Part shown: in pieces, positions 25,127 to 56,043 of the stretch | Numbering within the stretch: the first letter of the stretch is position 1 | Layout: each line of letters begins with the position of its first letter | Assembly: GCF_025755255.1 (NCBI RefSeq) | Contig: NZ_JALIEB010000002.1 | Coordinates: 225,282-289,281, forward strand | Direction: 5' to 3' | Length of the DNA: 64,000 nt | Source: Roseobacter sinensis | Lineage (GTDB): Bacteria > Pseudomonadota > Alphaproteobacteria > Rhodobacterales > Rhodobacteraceae | Notes under the pieces: generated by a model | The model's input: only the letters and a program-made list of their open reading frames with translations | What the model was told of the DNA's origin: nothing | Databases searched by the model: none | Program-made: the position numbers and the translations under genes

Positions 25127-25999
25127 ATGACCCGGATCATCACCCATCTTGCGGAGATCGCGACCCAATACGACGCGCTCTTTGTCGATCTGTGGGGCTG
25201 CGTGCACAACGGCGTCAGTGCCCTGCCCGAGGCGGTCGCCGCGTTGCAAGCCTATCGCGAGAGCGGCGGCAAGGTGGTGCTGGTCACCAACTCGCCGCGC
25301 CCGCGCCTTGGTGTCGAGAAACAGCTGAAGGCCTTCAACGTACCTGACAACAGCTGGGACACCATCGCCACCTCCGGTGACAGCGCGCGCTCGGCCATGT
25401 TCCGCGGTGTGGTAGGTGAGAAGGTGTGGCACATCGGCTATCCGGGTGACGAGCGATTCTTCGAGCCCATTGGTGTGGTGCAGAACCCGGTCAACGTGCA
25501 ATCGGTGCCGCTGGATCAAGCGGAAGGCATCGTCTGTACCGGCCCGCGCGACCCGCTGGCCGACCCGTCGGTGATGCGACCTGAATTCCTGATGGCCAAG
25601 CAGCGCGGACTGAAACTGCTGTGTGCCAACCCCGACATCATCGTCGACCGCGGAGAGCAGCGCGAATGGTGCGCAGGGGCTTTGGCGAAGCTCTACACCG
25701 AGATGGGCGGGGAGAGCCTCTACTTCGGCAAGCCGCATCCGCCAATCTACGATCTGGCGCGGCGGCGGCTCTCTGCACTTGGCGTGGATGTGCCGGACAG
25801 CCGGATTCTGGCGATTGGCGACGGGGTGCTGACCGACATCGCAGGCGCCATGGGCGAAGACATCGATTCGCTTTTCATTTCGGGCGGTCTGGCTGCGGCG
25901 GAAACGAAGACCTCGACACAGCCCGACCCGGATGCTCTAAGCGCCTATCTTCAAAAGGAAATGTCCAGTCCGACCTATGTGATAGGGCACCTGCGCTGA
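25127..25999 (+). CDS. TIGR01459 family HAD-type hydrolase
   Basis: A 290-residue class IIA HAD protein (NagD/4-nitrophenylphosphatase group). Motif I is DALFVDLWGCVHNG; the second Asp of the usual DxD appears as Gly-Cys, a feature of this subfamily. Motif II is LVTNSPRPR, motif III Lys is in SLYFGKPHPPIYD and motif IV in AIGDGVLTDIAGA. Substrate is unknown. It starts at ATG 25127 after GAAGGAG and probably shares a transcript with ppaC. Confidence 0.9.
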   Translation: MTRIITHLAEIATQYDALFVDLWGCVHNGVSALPEAVAALQAYRESGGKVVLVTNSPRPRLGVEKQLKAFNVPDNSWDTIATSGDSARSAMFRGVVGEKVWHIGYPGDERFFEPIGVVQNPVNVQSVPLDQAEGIVCTGPRDPLADPSVMRPEFLMAKQRGLKLLCANPDIIVDRGEQREWCAGALAKLYTEMGGESLYFGKPHPPIYDLARRRLSALGVDVPDSRILAIGDGVLTDIAGAMGEDIDSLFISGGLAAAETKTSTQPDPDALSAYLQKEMSSPTYVIGHLR

Positions 26000-26011
26000 C
26001 CTATTTTTCGC

Positions 26012-26039
26012 TTGATTTTCTGCAATTGCGAAGTAATTA
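26012..26039 (+). promoter_or_regulatory. Candidate promoter of the maoC-ribF-ycgN operon
   Basis: TTGATT (26012-26017), 16 bases, TAATTA (26034-26039) in an AT-rich 90-bp gap. Confidence 0.4.
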
Positions 26040-26089
26040 AGTTTCAACAGCTGTGTCGTAATGATTAGAAAATTACCGGAAGGGTCATC

Positions 26090-26533
26090 ATGTTGGACAA
26101 TCTGCCGCGCGGAACCATCTGCATCGAAGATATCGAGATGGGGATGTCGCGCTACCTGCAAAAGGTGGTGACCGATGAGGATATCGAGATGTTCGCGCAG
26201 ATCTCGACCGACCGGAATCCGGTGCATCTCGACGACGATTATGCCCGCGACACGATCTTCGAAGGGCGCATCGCGCACGGCATGCTCACCGCGGGACTGA
26301 TCTCGGCGGTGATCGGCGAACAGCTTCCGGGCCACGGCACCGTCTACATGGGGCAGTCGCTGAAATTTCTCGCCCCCGTCCGCCCCGGTGATCTGGTGCA
26401 TGCGGAGGTCAAGGTGATTGACATCGACGTTTCCAAACGCCGCGTGAAGCTGGACTGCCATTGCGAAGTGGACGGCAAGAAGGTTCTGGTCGGCGAAGCC
26501 ATGGTTATGGCGCCTTCGCGCAAGTTCGACTGA
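26090..26533 (+). CDS. MaoC family dehydratase
   Basis: A 147-residue hot-dog-fold protein. The hydratase 2 motif is intact: ISTDRNPVHLDDDYA with Asp and His at catalytic positions, followed by RIAHGMLTAGL. Such stand-alone proteins are (R)-specific enoyl-CoA hydratases or related acyl-CoA dehydratases. With phaA-phaB elsewhere in the window it could supply (R)-3-hydroxyacyl-CoA, but this is speculative. The ATG follows GGAAGGG. Confidence 0.92.
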   Translation: MLDNLPRGTICIEDIEMGMSRYLQKVVTDEDIEMFAQISTDRNPVHLDDDYARDTIFEGRIAHGMLTAGLISAVIGEQLPGHGTVYMGQSLKFLAPVRPGDLVHAEVKVIDIDVSKRRVKLDCHCEVDGKKVLVGEAMVMAPSRKFD

Positions 26534-33718: not shown

Positions 33719-35107
33719 CTAGGCGCGCAGGTCTATACTGCGCATCGGGGCGGTCTGCTGGCCGGGGGCGTCAAACGTTCCGTCCTGCTGGAAAAACCGC
33801 GTGCCGTCGCCATTGCGCACAATCAGATTGGCCGCGTCGTCGACCCCTTCGAAGGTGATGGCGCCCCCATCCTCGAAACTGAGCGTCAGAAGCCCGTCGG
33901 TCTTGTCGACGGTGTAGCGGGCGGAACTGTCGAGATCGACCAGGACAGACACGCCCTTGCCAAGCGAGACATGATCCTGTCCGTCACCGCTGCGGTACTT
34001 GAGTGCGACGGTCCCGCTCTCGAGGTGCATCCGGTCGTCACCGAGGCCGCCGTCGACAGAGATATGTCGGTCGGCACGGATGTTCAGGGTGTCATTGCCC
34101 GCACCGCCCTGCACATCAGCGTTGCTCAGTGAGGAGAACCTCAGCTCGCGACCCGATCCCTCGGCGCGCGGCGTGTAAATGGTGTCGAGCGGTCGATTGC
34201 CCTGCTCGACGTCCACCGAGATGACGTCGTCGCCCGCGCCCCCGTCGATCCGGGTGGCCAGCACCGCCTTCACGGCAATACTGTCATGGCCCTCATCCCC
34301 ATTCACATATTCCACCAGGCCGCCGTTGATCGCCACGGCGTCATTGCCCGCGCCCGCGTGCACGCCGTTGACCAGCCGGGACTGGACCGCGATGGAATCC
34401 GCGCCGCCGCCGGTCCAGATATCCTGCACATCACGCGCTTGGATCGAAAGACTGTCGGCGTTGCTGTACCGGCGCTGGCCGCCATGGCCGCCACCGAAGC
34501 CATCGCCGACAATATGCGCCATCGTGGCCCGATCCGCGTCCGTGTGCACGCTGTAGACCCGATCGGCGCTGATGCTGACGGCGTCGCTGCCATCACCGGT
34601 GCGCATCCCGCTCACGGTGTCATCGGTGACCGCGACAGCGTCATTGCCGTCACCGGTGGCATATTCGACATATTCGGTTTCGAGCGTGAGCCTGGCATCC
34701 GCGCGGCTGATGGTGTCGATGTTCGCCCGAACAAAGTCGGCCATGGTGGTCCCGATATCCGGCTCCTCGGTGTTTTGCGGGTCAATGGGTGCCGCGCTGT
34801 CGTCTTGGCCGGACAGTTTGACCAAAGCCTTCATCAGCTCCAGCGCCTTTTGGCGGTACCGCTCGGCGACCAGATTGACCGAATCGTCCACATGATCGTT
34901 GGTTATGATCTCACGGGCCTCATACCGCTCATCGCGGTCGGCCATGTAATCTTTCTGGGCCACAGCCTTCTCGCGGCGCAGAGCCTCCACGGTGCTTGTG
35001 GTGCTGGGCCCGTCGTCCTGCTGCCGGGTGACTTCGGCGCGGGCCGCATCGGATTGCGCCATGAGCAAAGATGCTGTGATCATTGGACTATTTTGCTGAA
35101 TCATCAT
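33719..35107 (-). CDS. Protein with regular 19-residue RTX-like repeats
   Basis: A 462-residue acidic protein with no signal peptide. Residues 1-110 are a charged helical region; residues 150-380 contain G-x-G-x-D repeats whose Asp falls at 156, 175, 218, 237, 256, 275, 294, 336, 355 and 375, that is 19 apart except at two insertions of about 42 residues and one step of 20. Each unit reads roughly TGxGxDxxxI/V...V..V. RTX nonapeptides give an 18-residue two-turn period, so this is a related but distinct beta-helix. The family is not recognised; it could be a type I secreted protein or a cytoplasmic scaffold. ATG 35107 follows GGAGGG. Confidence 0.75.
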   Translation of the reverse strand: MMIQQNSPMITASLLMAQSDAARAEVTRQQDDGPSTTSTVEALRREKAVAQKDYMADRDERYEAREIITNDHVDDSVNLVAERYRQKALELMKALVKLSGQDDSAAPIDPQNTEEPDIGTTMADFVRANIDTISRADARLTLETEYVEYATGDGNDAVAVTDDTVSGMRTGDGSDAVSISADRVYSVHTDADRATMAHIVGDGFGGGHGGQRRYSNADSLSIQARDVQDIWTGGGADSIAVQSRLVNGVHAGAGNDAVAINGGLVEYVNGDEGHDSIAVKAVLATRIDGGAGDDVISVDVEQGNRPLDTIYTPRAEGSGRELRFSSLSNADVQGGAGNDTLNIRADRHISVDGGLGDDRMHLESGTVALKYRSGDGQDHVSLGKGVSVLVDLDSSARYTVDKTDGLLTLSFEDGGAITFEGVDDAANLIVRNGDGTRFFQQDGTFDAPGQQTAPMRSIDLRA

Positions 35108-35281
35108 TGTCACACCCTCCTTCACCCGAAGATGAGCGTGACTCAGAAAGATTGCCGATCGCTTAACGCCAACAGCGGACTGGATAGAAATGAAACAACC
35201 CCCGAACCGCACGGCGTGCCAGACAACAAGGCGGAGATCAGGCAGGAAAGGCACAGCCGGGGCGGACAACGGGACCGCTCA

Positions 35282-35759: not shown

Positions 35760-38079
<2,320 letters not shown>

Positions 38080-38085
38080 AATGTC

Positions 38086-38316
38086 CTACCTTTCCAACCA
38101 TGTGTACGCGAACGCAATAAAAAGGGAGCCGGCGAAGAGAAGAATACCCAAGTACCTTCCAGACTTTTCCCATCTTGCTTTCCTTCCGTATTCTTCGACA
38201 CAGACATGCACTGTCCGCCATTTCCCTGTTCTGAAACCGCATTGTGATCCCGCGCTGCATTCTCGAATTTCGACAGCTTCTTTCCCACATCGGTTGCAAA
38301 CAAAGAGGTCAGGCAT
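38086..38316 (-). CDS. Small zinc-ribbon/transmembrane protein inside the atp operon
   Basis: A 76-residue protein of no recognised family. The N-terminal half has Cys7 and Cys10 (CNRCGK), then Cys20, Cys26 and Cys39, a possible zinc ribbon. The C-terminal half has a basic stretch (RKARWEKSGR, about 45-54) then one membrane segment (about 55-74, LGILLFAGSLFIAFAYTW), predicting an inner-membrane anchor with the Cys-rich part in the cytoplasm. AGGAGA sits five bases before its ATG, starting inside the atpA stop. Gaps to atpA and atpG are 6 bp each. GC is about 49% by hand count, against about 56-63% in sampled flanking atp sequence, suggesting a late insertion. Confidence 0.75.
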   Translation of the reverse strand: MPDLFVCNRCGKEAVEIRECSAGSQCGFRTGKWRTVHVCVEEYGRKARWEKSGRYLGILLFAGSLFIAFAYTWLER

Positions 38317-38322
38317 CTTCTC

Positions 38323-39852
38323 CTAGGCGAAATCAGCGGCGAATTCACTGATCGCAGCCTTGAGCCGGTCTGCCGCGTCGTCCTTGATCTTGGGATCTTC
38401 GTTGGTGATCCAGTCGAGAATGTCGCTGTGCTTGGAGTGCATGTGACCCAAGAGGCCCTTCTCGAAGCGGCCCACTTCGCTCACGTCGATCTTGTCGAGG
38501 AAGCCATTGGTGCCTGCGAAGATCACGCAGACAATCTCGGCGTTGGTCAGCGGCGAATACTGCGGCTGTTTCATCAGTTCGGTGAGGCGCGCGCCCCGGG
38601 CCAGCAGTTGCTGGGTCGAGGCGTCGAGGTCGGAGCCGAACTGCGCGAAGGCCGCCATTTCGCGGTACTGCGCCAGCGACAATTTCACCGGGCCCGCGAC
38701 CGAGGACATCGCCTTGGTCTGGGCCGAGGAGCCCACGCGGGAGACCGACAGACCGGTGTTCACGGCAGGGCGGATGCCCTGGTAGAAGAGCTCGGTTTCG
38801 AGAAAGATCTGGCCGTCGGTGATTGAGATCACGTTTGTCGGAATAAAGGCCGACACGTCGCCGCCTTGGGTTTCGATGATCGGCAGCGCCGTGAGCGAGC
38901 CGTTGCCCGCGTCATCGCCCAGTTTCGCGGAGCGTTCCAGAAGGCGGGAGTGCAGGTAGAAGACGTCACCGGGGTAGGCTTCGCGTCCGGGCGGACGGCG
39001 CAGCAGCAGCGACATCTGACGATAAGACACGGCCTGTTTGGAGAGGTCATCGTAGATGATCAGCGCGTGGCGGCCGTTGTCGCGGAAGTGCTCGGCCATC
39101 GCGGTGGCGGAATAGGGTGCGAGGAACTGCATCGGCGCAGGCTCGGACGCCGTCGCGGCGACGACGATGGAATAGTCGATAGCACCCGTCTCTTCGAGCT
39201 TCTTGACCAACTGCGCCACGGTGGAGCGCTTCTGGCCGACGGCGACATAGATGCAGTAGAGCTTCTTGCTCTCATCATCGCCAGCCGCGTCGTTATAGGA
39301 TTTCTGGTTCAGGATCGCGTCGAGGGCAACGGCGGTCTTGCCCGTCTGACGGTCGCCGATGATCAGCTCACGCTGACCGCGGCCAATCGGGATCATCGAG
39401 TCGACGGCCTTGAGGCCGGTCGCCATGGGCTCATGCACGGATTTGCGCGGGATGATGCCCGGCGCCTTGACATCCGCCTGGGAGGAGGTCTTGGCGTTGA
39501 TCGGGCCCTTGCCGTCGATCGGGTTGCCGAGGCCGTCCACAACGCGACCCAAAAGCTCGTCACCGGTCGGCACCGACACGATGGAGTTGGTGCGCTTGAC
39601 GGTATCGCCTTCCTTGATGTCGCGGTCGGAGCCGAAGATCACGACACCCACGTTGTCGGATTCGAGGTTCAGTGCCATGCCCTGAATGCCACCGGGAAAC
39701 TCGACCATTTCACCGGCCTGCACGTTGTCCAGACCGTACACGCGGGCGATCCCGTCGCCGACGGAAAGCACGCGGCCCACTTCGGCTTCCTGACCGAAGT
39801 TCTTGATCTGGTCTTTCAGGATCGCAGAAATCTCTGCTGCTTGGATACCCAT
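38323..39852 (-). CDS. atpA: ATP synthase F1 subunit alpha
   Basis: The regulatory nucleotide-binding subunit (509 residues). It shows [20 protein letters not shown], the P-loop [22 protein letters not shown] and [17 protein letters not shown]. It starts at ATG 39852, immediately after the atpH stop, and is followed by the small Cys-rich gene and then atpG. Confidence 0.99.
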
Positions 39853-54862: not shown

Positions 54863-55200
54863 AGCTGATCTCCTTCGATATGGGCCCGATGCACGGGCAT
54901 GAAGGGCGTTGTCCTCTGGCTTAAAGCCCGACAGGCATCCCCTTGCGGGGGCCGCCAACACCAATGAAGCCGCGCTTATACTGAGCCCCAAGGCAGAGTC
55001 AACGCCCCTTCGGCTTGCGGGCGCCTTGGCACCAGCTTTGCGCGCGCGGGCGGCAAACGATCCGTCTTCATGTTTGCCAATTGTTCACCATATTTTTCAA
55101 AGGGTTAAATCTAATCTAAATTAGAACAAAATGAGAATATTTACGCGATTTTAGCAATTTTGCCCACAAAGTGACCCGGTCGAAACAGTGCGAGGGTCCC
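54863..55200. other. 338-bp intergenic region between rpsD and the EAL gene
   Basis: It contains the rpsD promoter (54975-55002) and a leader of about 105 nt with short GC hairpins (GGGCTTTAAGCC; CCCCCGCAAGGGG), which could serve S4 feedback control. The right half (55080-55165) is very AT-rich and includes the dyad TCTAAATTAGA, likely the promoter region of the EAL gene. No gene was found. Confidence 0.5.
54975..55002 (-). promoter_or_regulatory. Sigma70 promoter of rpsD
   Basis: On the minus strand TTGACT (55002-54997), 16 bases, TATAAG (54980-54975). Both boxes are near consensus. Confidence 0.7.
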
Positions 55201-56043
55201 ATGTCCGGATCGAGAAGAAGACGATTGGCAGATGTTCCCCCGGGCGCGGAAAACCCGCTTCAGTTTGCGCTCTCTCAGCGCGACCGGAATACGATCGGGA
55301 TGGTCGAGGAGGCGATCAGGCACAAGCAGGTTTTGCTGGCGTTTCAGCCGGTGATGCAGGCGCGGGCTCCGGACAAGATCGCATTCTATGAGGGTCTGAT
55401 CCGCGTGCTCGACTCGACCGGCCGGGTCATCCCCGCCATCGACTTCATGGATACGATCGAGAACACGGAGCTGGGGCGCCAGTTGGACACGCTGGCACTC
55501 GGGCTCGGCCTGCGCGCGCTGAATGACAACCCCAGCTTGCGGCTGTCCATCAACATGTCGGCCCGCTCGATCGGCTATCGGCAGTGGAACCGGACGCTGG
55601 ACCGCTGGCTGACCCGGAACCCTCTGATTGCCGAGCGCTTGATCCTGGAAATCACCGAGAGCTCGGCCATGCTCGTCCCCGAGCTTGTGGTCGACTTCAT
55701 GGACCGTTTGCAGATCGAGGGGATCTGCTTTGCCATGGATGATTTCGGGGCAGGCTACACCGCCCTGCGGTACTTCAAGGATTTCTACTTCGACATTCTC
55801 AAGATCGACGGCCAATTCGTTCAAGGCATCGCAAATGATCCGGACAACCAGGCGCTGACGGCGGCGCTCGTTTCGATCGCGAAGCATTTCGACATGCTCA
55901 CCGTCGCGGAGTTCGTCGAGACCAAGGAGGATGCCGCAACCCTGATCAATCTCGGGGTGGACTGCCTGCAAGGTTTCTACTTCTCCGCCGCCTCGACGCG
56001 GCCACACTGGCTGCGGCCCGCGGATACGCAAAAAGCCATCTGA
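55201..56043 (+). CDS. EAL domain cyclic-di-GMP phosphodiesterase
   Basis: A 280-residue cytoplasmic EAL protein with no GGDEF, PAS or membrane region. The catalytic set is present: the Glu of FYEGLIR (EGL in place of EAL), Asn in SINMSARS, EITES, DDFGAGYTALRY, DILKIDG, EFVETKED and the final QGFYF. It should hydrolyse c-di-GMP to pGpG. ATG 55201 follows GAGGG; a GTG at 55171 is in frame but the extension looks non-family. No cognate cyclase is nearby. Confidence 0.9.
   Translation: MSGSRRRRLADVPPGAENPLQFALSQRDRNTIGMVEEAIRHKQVLLAFQPVMQARAPDKIAFYEGLIRVLDSTGRVIPAIDFMDTIENTELGRQLDTLALGLGLRALNDNPSLRLSINMSARSIGYRQWNRTLDRWLTRNPLIAERLILEITESSAMLVPELVVDFMDRLQIEGICFAMDDFGAGYTALRYFKDFYFDILKIDGQFVQGIANDPDNQALTAALVSIAKHFDMLTVAEFVETKEDAATLINLGVDCLQGFYFSAASTRPHWLRPADTQKAI

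Follow-up and report, generated by a model that had tools for sequence, protein, structure and literature searches.

One of the first questions raised by the F1-ATP synthase operon of Roseobacter sinensis is why a 76-codon open reading frame (ORF) should lie between atpA and atpG, the genes for the alpha and gamma subunits. Is the frame a gene at all, does its product act on F1, and how might the DNA that carries it have come to be there? An initial annotation of the locus offered two answers: a small zinc- or redox-sensing membrane protein that serves F1 as an assembly or inhibitory factor, or a recent insertion that is simply tolerated. The analysis of the window, i.e. the whole stretch of 64,000 nucleotides under study, leads us to regard the DNA as probably a recent insertion that is tolerated, with an ORF that is likely to be translated along with the operon and for which no role in F1 is indicated.

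The ORF within the atp operon

The atp genes of the window are found on the minus strand in the order atpH, atpA, ORF, atpG, atpD and atpC, with names taken from the translations and, for atpA and atpG, also from sequence matches (by tblastn in the case of atpA). Between atpA (38323-39852) and atpG (37204-38079) there is an intergenic stretch of 243 nt (38080-38322), within which the orphan ORF, P0001, runs from an ATG to a TAG at 38086-38316, again on the minus strand. Its 76-residue product, MPDLFVCNRCGKEAVEIRECSAGSQCGFRTGKWRTVHVCVEEYGRKARWEKSGRYLGILLFAGSLFIAFAYTWLER, has a Cys-rich first half and a C-terminal hydrophobic helix. The fit to both neighbours is close, such that the TAG stop of atpA (38323-38325) is followed by six nucleotides, GAGAAG, and then by the ATG of the ORF, and the TAG of the ORF (38086-38088) is followed by a further six, GACATT, and then by the GTG start of atpG (38077-38079). 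Re-reading of the coordinates on the minus strand thus agrees with the 76-codon gene and 6-nt gaps described in the initial annotation, as it does with the AGGAGA site placed partly inside the atpA stop, since an AGGAG at 38320-38324 (minus strand) overlaps the TAG. This AGGAG is a putative ribosome-binding site for the ORF, and a GGAAAGG within the end of the ORF (38089-38095, minus strand) could act in the same way for atpG. Judged from this layout, it is likely that the ORF is co-transcribed with the F1 genes and translated.

The junction in relatives

How unusual is such an arrangement? The gap of 243 nt compares with 6-33 nt in all 196 relatives whose junction was inspected at the nucleotide level (18 congeners plus 178 further members of the family, about one per genus). 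Of the 178 non-congener loci, 148 were drawn from genomes in which atpA and atpG match as a single stretch, a choice that biases towards short gaps that keep the frame. Within the congeners alone the gap is 11-15 nt (18/18). A counter-sample consisted of 75 family genomes where atpA and atpG match in separate stretches, one of them split over contigs, and for the 74 with both parts on one contig the match coordinates give gaps of 4-40 nt, 29 of these genomes being also among the 196 read. Altogether the junction was examined in all but about 150 of the 373 non-congener family genomes with a match. The survey of Rhodobacteraceae atp operons for the same gene, on which the standing of the ORF as an accessory factor kept in the operons of several lineages depends, returned no gap above 33 nt in 196 genomes and none above 40 nt in 74. 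Nor was a gene between atpA and atpG found in the titles and abstract starts surveyed, all from the open literature. An extra ORF is known within the F1 operon of a related bacterium, Rhodobacter (Rhodopseudomonas) blasticus, where it lies instead between gamma and beta.

The start of atpG is also of interest. Here it is GTG, against ATG in 18 of 18 congeners, and across the 196 relatives ATG is used in 184, TTG in 7 and GTG in 5.

Composition and coding signal

The GC content of the ORF is 48.9%, close to the value of about 49% first estimated by hand and below all five atp genes (58.7-66.7%); when the window is scanned in 231-bp stretches at steps of 10, only 0.5% have a GC content equal to or below that of the ORF. 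Two more low-GC stretches, at 25831-26261 and 54921-55331, fall to 46% in 231 bp and are comparable to the insert. Across the three codon positions the GC content of the ORF is flat (0.481/0.494/0.494), in contrast to that of atpA (0.627/0.418/0.824), and the codon score in the ORF frame is -0.82, as compared with 0.47 (sd 0.16) for the host and -0.94 (sd 0.20) for host off frames, where the host values come from segments of 18 long genes in the window. The same stretch is also free of stops in two other frames, one per strand, and a third frame has one stop, near its start. Another minus-strand frame of the insert scores -0.42, above the ORF and far below host genes; searches of viral contigs and of 99 genomes returned no homologue of it outside its own genome. 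The RNA of the insert folds no better than shuffles (z -0.41) and has no Rfam match; no sigma-70-like promoter was found, and one terminator-like site, on the plus strand, compares with 0.7 expected.

Since the frame was open in 844 of 20,000 dinucleotide shuffles, its openness alone is weak evidence. The hydropathy peak, however, recurs in 3 of these 844, a figure to which must be added that shuffling disrupts the local T-rich run behind the peak; five or more Cys residues are found in 91, and both features together in none. The rarity of the peak, with the confident helix discussed below, is more in keeping with a protein under selection than with a frame open by chance. Coding is thus plausible from the sequence but unproven, given that the ORF is AT-rich, lacks a codon-position signal and scores unlike host genes; the start site abutting the atpA stop and the rarity of the hydropathy peak among shuffles speak in favour of translation.

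The predicted protein

What kind of protein would be made? Its Cys residues are at positions 7, 10, 20, 26 and 39 (codons 7-39, 38200-38298, minus strand), so that the count of five proposed earlier holds and their assignment to the N-terminal half does not, the fifth lying just past the middle. The C-terminal membrane segment proposed to follow basic residues is recovered both by hydropathy and by a single-sequence AlphaFold2 model as a predicted hydrophobic helix over codons 52-75 (38092-38163, minus strand). Confidence in the model is high at the core of this helix and low elsewhere, with mean pLDDT values of 91 for residues 61-70, 58.6 for the whole protein and 42-50 for the four blocks of residues 1-40. 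The basic residues before the helix, interpreted by the positive-inside rule, suggest that the Cys-rich end faces the cytosol.

Whether the Cys residues form part of a zinc ribbon is less clear-cut. In a profile (HMM) search, a check proposed at the outset, all Pfam and NCBIfam rows were below their cut-offs and no ATP synthase factor was among them. The best Pfam resemblance is to L37e (PF01907), with an E-value of 0.017 and 15.6 bits against a curated cut-off of 27.6; the NCBIfam L37e model gives 12.2 against 71, and the best sequence match in the PDB is to ribosomal L37 (E 0.002). The likeness to L37e-type zinc ribbons resides in a CxxCG followed by further Cys and in a weak alignment. The definition of a zinc ribbon includes two CxxC pairs, and the ORF has C7-x2-C10, then C20-x5-C26 and then C39, i.e. 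one such pair. With a score below the cut-off, a second pair of the C-x5-C form, a predicted membrane helix and a place in a bacterial operon, the product differs from the L37e type, and a zinc ribbon is possible on the evidence of its Cys pattern.

Searches for homologues

The genomes searched for the ORF protein were sampled from genus to phylum as overlapping sets with one genome per species. The genome itself returned the ORF and two places at chance level (E 0.19 and 0.53). At the level of the genus (19 genomes) 5 of 18 congeners gave matches at E 0.002-0.07, four of them with internal stops and none credible, and at that of the family (394 genomes) nine others at E <= 0.01 were likewise not credible. 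Nothing besides the genome itself was found in the order (292 genomes, E 0.001) or the phylum (299 genomes, E 1e-4), and the one other match in the class (385 genomes) contained three stops and was not credible either. When the weak hits from genus (5), family (9) and class (1) were fetched, 14 of the 15 were overlapped by a longer open frame, with locus L005 as the exception. L016, the hit that comes closest to the ORF in the order of its Cys residues and in its hydrophobic end, was rejected as it sits off-frame within a 680-aa frame. L004, the sole locus from the pattern search of contigs, was also set aside: what it shares is CGFRTGKW, itself one of the search patterns, and its own frame we presume from its motif to resemble an HNH endonuclease.

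Mobile elements were no more informative. There was no protein match in plasmids at E 1, eleven phage records were found at E 0.1-0.7 only, none of seven pattern matches in viral contigs was confirmed, and the insert DNA, searched in a distant mode, matched neither phages nor plasmids at E 1. The best PHROG for the ORF has an E-value of 0.11, and among the other frames of the insert the best is 0.025, for one plus-strand frame over 18 residues; PADLOC gave no row for the ORF. A decayed mobile-element gene, the alternative raised in the initial annotation, thus found no match in plasmids, phages, viral contigs or PHROGs. Among named entries of the plasmid collection, the DNA of the atp region was matched best by Paracoccus denitrificans (79.3%). 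The insert DNA is single-copy in its genome, where the only other match is of 18 nt, and has matches of 19-22 nt in only 3 of 18 congeners. Within the genomes sampled the ORF therefore has no detectable homologue outside the species, and it resembles the species-restricted short ORFans of bacteria in being short, AT-rich relative to the host, devoid of a credible homologue and unlike the host in codon usage. Its place inside a core operon, with a tight fit of both start and stop, may set it apart from them.

These results bear on two alternatives to a tolerated insertion. According to the first, the insert is a functional foreign gene, for instance of a phage or mobile element, which encodes a small zinc-binding, single-span membrane protein kept for a function outside F1. 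Such a gene would account for the rare hydropathy peak, the confidently modelled helix, the CxxCG with its further Cys and weak alignment to L37-type ribbons, and the close fit of start and stop to the neighbours; yet it is made rather unlikely by the search results in plasmids, viral contigs, phages and PHROGs, by the C-x5-C form of the second Cys pair, by the flat GC content across codon positions and by the low pLDDT over residues 1-40. The second alternative holds that the ORF is no gene, and that any effect of the insert would be that of a spacer, lowering the translation of gamma or uncoupling it from that of alpha. A ribosome-binding-like site and an ATG at the atpA stop, which make translation likely, do not sit easily with this, and nor does a hydropathy unlike that of most shuffles. 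We consider the spacer clearly unlikely, even with the flat codon-position GC, the two other stop-free frames, the GTG of atpG in place of the ATG of the congeners, and the unremarkable fold and lack of an Rfam match on its side.

Recombination beside the insert

Trees of atpA from -1200 to -181 relative to its stop, and of atpG, place the genome beside the congener G013, with support of 95/83 and 100/98, respectively. In a tree of the last 165 nt of atpA, however, it groups with eight congeners of group II (90/93), and ten genomes of the group of G013 stand apart (99/95) on a branch that also holds one outside locus. The change is localised to a patch from about -135 to -25. Compared with G013, this patch has differences at 35 of its 111 sites and the sequence immediately upstream at 22 of 195 (P 2.6e-5); compared with G001, the counts are 39 of 111 and 19 of 195 (P 1.2e-7). 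As the best identity to the patch among the 196 loci is only 0.793, its donor would lie outside the sample. The trees and site differences together indicate that the 3' end of atpA, at about 38350-38460 (minus strand), is a recombinant patch, a new observation, and that recombination acted at the atpA-atpG junction. At the protein level the C-terminus of AtpA is here like that of the other congener group, and the rest of atpA as well as atpG side with G013. The genus (L020-L037) has two types of AtpA C-terminus, DITNNDRKVK in 10 genomes and WIT..DPKIK in 8, and the type of atpA-atpG spacer departs from this split in G018, G008 and G006.

Closer to the insert the picture reverts. The 20-mer at -21 to -2 of atpA is of the type of the G013 group (8 of 18 congeners, 1 of 178 others), which means that the patch ends before the insert and that the two do not form one continuous import; they may be separate events. 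On the other side, the first 21 nt of atpG (38059-38079, minus strand, from the GTG start) have 5 differences from each of G013 and G001, against 19/219 and 23/219 further in (P 0.04 and 0.08), and contain a 17-nt word, CCTAGTCTGAAGGACCT, that occurs in 5 of 178 outside loci and 0 of 18 congeners.

An imported atpA patch on one side and an unusual start of atpG on the other hint at a further reading, in which a donor lineage that the sample does not contain keeps a small Cys-rich membrane protein at the atpA-atpG junction that acts on F1, by way of assembly or of zinc- or redox-dependent inhibition, and the whole junction was received by homologous recombination. We hold this to be very improbable.

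Routes considered for the insert

Several ways in which the DNA could have arrived were tried. A 5-bp target duplication, TGCCT, with the ORF taking over the atpG start, was considered, and removal of the stretch between the two TGCCT copies would restore the ATG of atpG. The idea is weakened by the shuffle test, where the longest shared junction word of 6 nt is reached in 309 of 2000 shuffles, and by the unusual atpA-atpG gap of 6 nt that would remain, which is seen in 2 of 196 relatives and 0 of 18 congeners. MITE-like features are marginal, inverted similarity near both ends being found in 14 of 2000 shuffles, with mismatched outermost bases and no second copy. The idea that an integrase-type event replaced the 3' end of atpA and moved the native end to a place beside atpG was rejected, as no remnant of that end stands out in the insert (for the ends of four relatives, 12-40 of 100 shuffles were as good). 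A single unbroken tract through atpA, insert and atpG sits badly with the 20-mer of the G013 group, and the cluster in atpG 1-21 is marginal.

Gene transfer agents occur in Rhodobacterales and are a possible route for the insert. Natural transformation is reported to leave donor segments that are discontinuous and lie near one another (PMC13344027), and joining with homology at one end only is described as homology-facilitated illegitimate recombination (PMC3240628).

A probable recent and tolerated insertion

The probable explanation remains that of a recent, tolerated insertion, which is supported by the absence of the insert from the relatives examined, the lack of a credible homologue in the collections searched, the host-unlike composition and the mosaic flank. 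The course of events that we infer is as follows. In this species, about 230-240 bp of AT-rich, foreign-looking DNA would recently have entered the space that separates atpA from atpG, a junction also touched by the recombination that imported the patch at the atpA 3' end. The insert either carried the 76-codon ORF or created it on joining to the junction. With its start abutting the atpA stop, the ORF would probably be read by ribosomes on the atp mRNA, and its product would be a small protein whose Cys-rich end lies in the cytosol and whose C-terminal part spans the membrane as a single helix. The insertion would be tolerated in that it leaves both neighbours whole and provides atpG with a new candidate ribosome-binding site alongside its GTG start. 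Since only a third as much gamma as alpha is required, a somewhat weaker coupling between the two should cost little.

Of the two answers first proposed, then, the tolerated insertion has gained from absence, composition and recombinant flank, and the zinc- or redox-sensing F1 factor is left with its Cys pattern, helix and position. A dedicated assembly or inhibitory factor, for which only the place in the F1 operon and likely co-expression speak, is scarcely probable at all in view of its absence from the 196 relatives read and the 74 judged by coordinates, of profile rows devoid of any ATP synthase factor, and of the zeta subunit (DUF1476), the inhibitor of the alphaproteobacterial F1FO-ATPase, whose gene lies outside both atp operons (PMC9317440). 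Were an F1 factor nevertheless encoded here, it would share with zeta its small size and action on F1; the two Pfam rows found for the ORF at E up to 10 do not include DUF1476.

If only a tolerated insertion, the locus offers a case from nature in which a very young ORF has entered a highly conserved operon, with a recombination scar adjoining, and would be useful for studying the origin of new small membrane proteins. Were the product to act on F1, ATP synthase would have a regulator specific to one species, a surprising finding.

Other features of the window

Two observations concern the neighbouring genes. In atpG, the synonymous sites of codons 8-22 (38014-38058) look constrained across 196 family sequences, its own included, with codon 10 being AGG or CGG in 193, codon 11 ATC in 195 and codon 19 AAG in 195, a constraint that may reflect codon choice or else a signal, in RNA or DNA, within the coding sequence. 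Directly after atpC, at 33719-35269, there is a 516-aa frame with repeated motifs rich in D, G and N, which may resemble RTX-type calcium-binding repeats.
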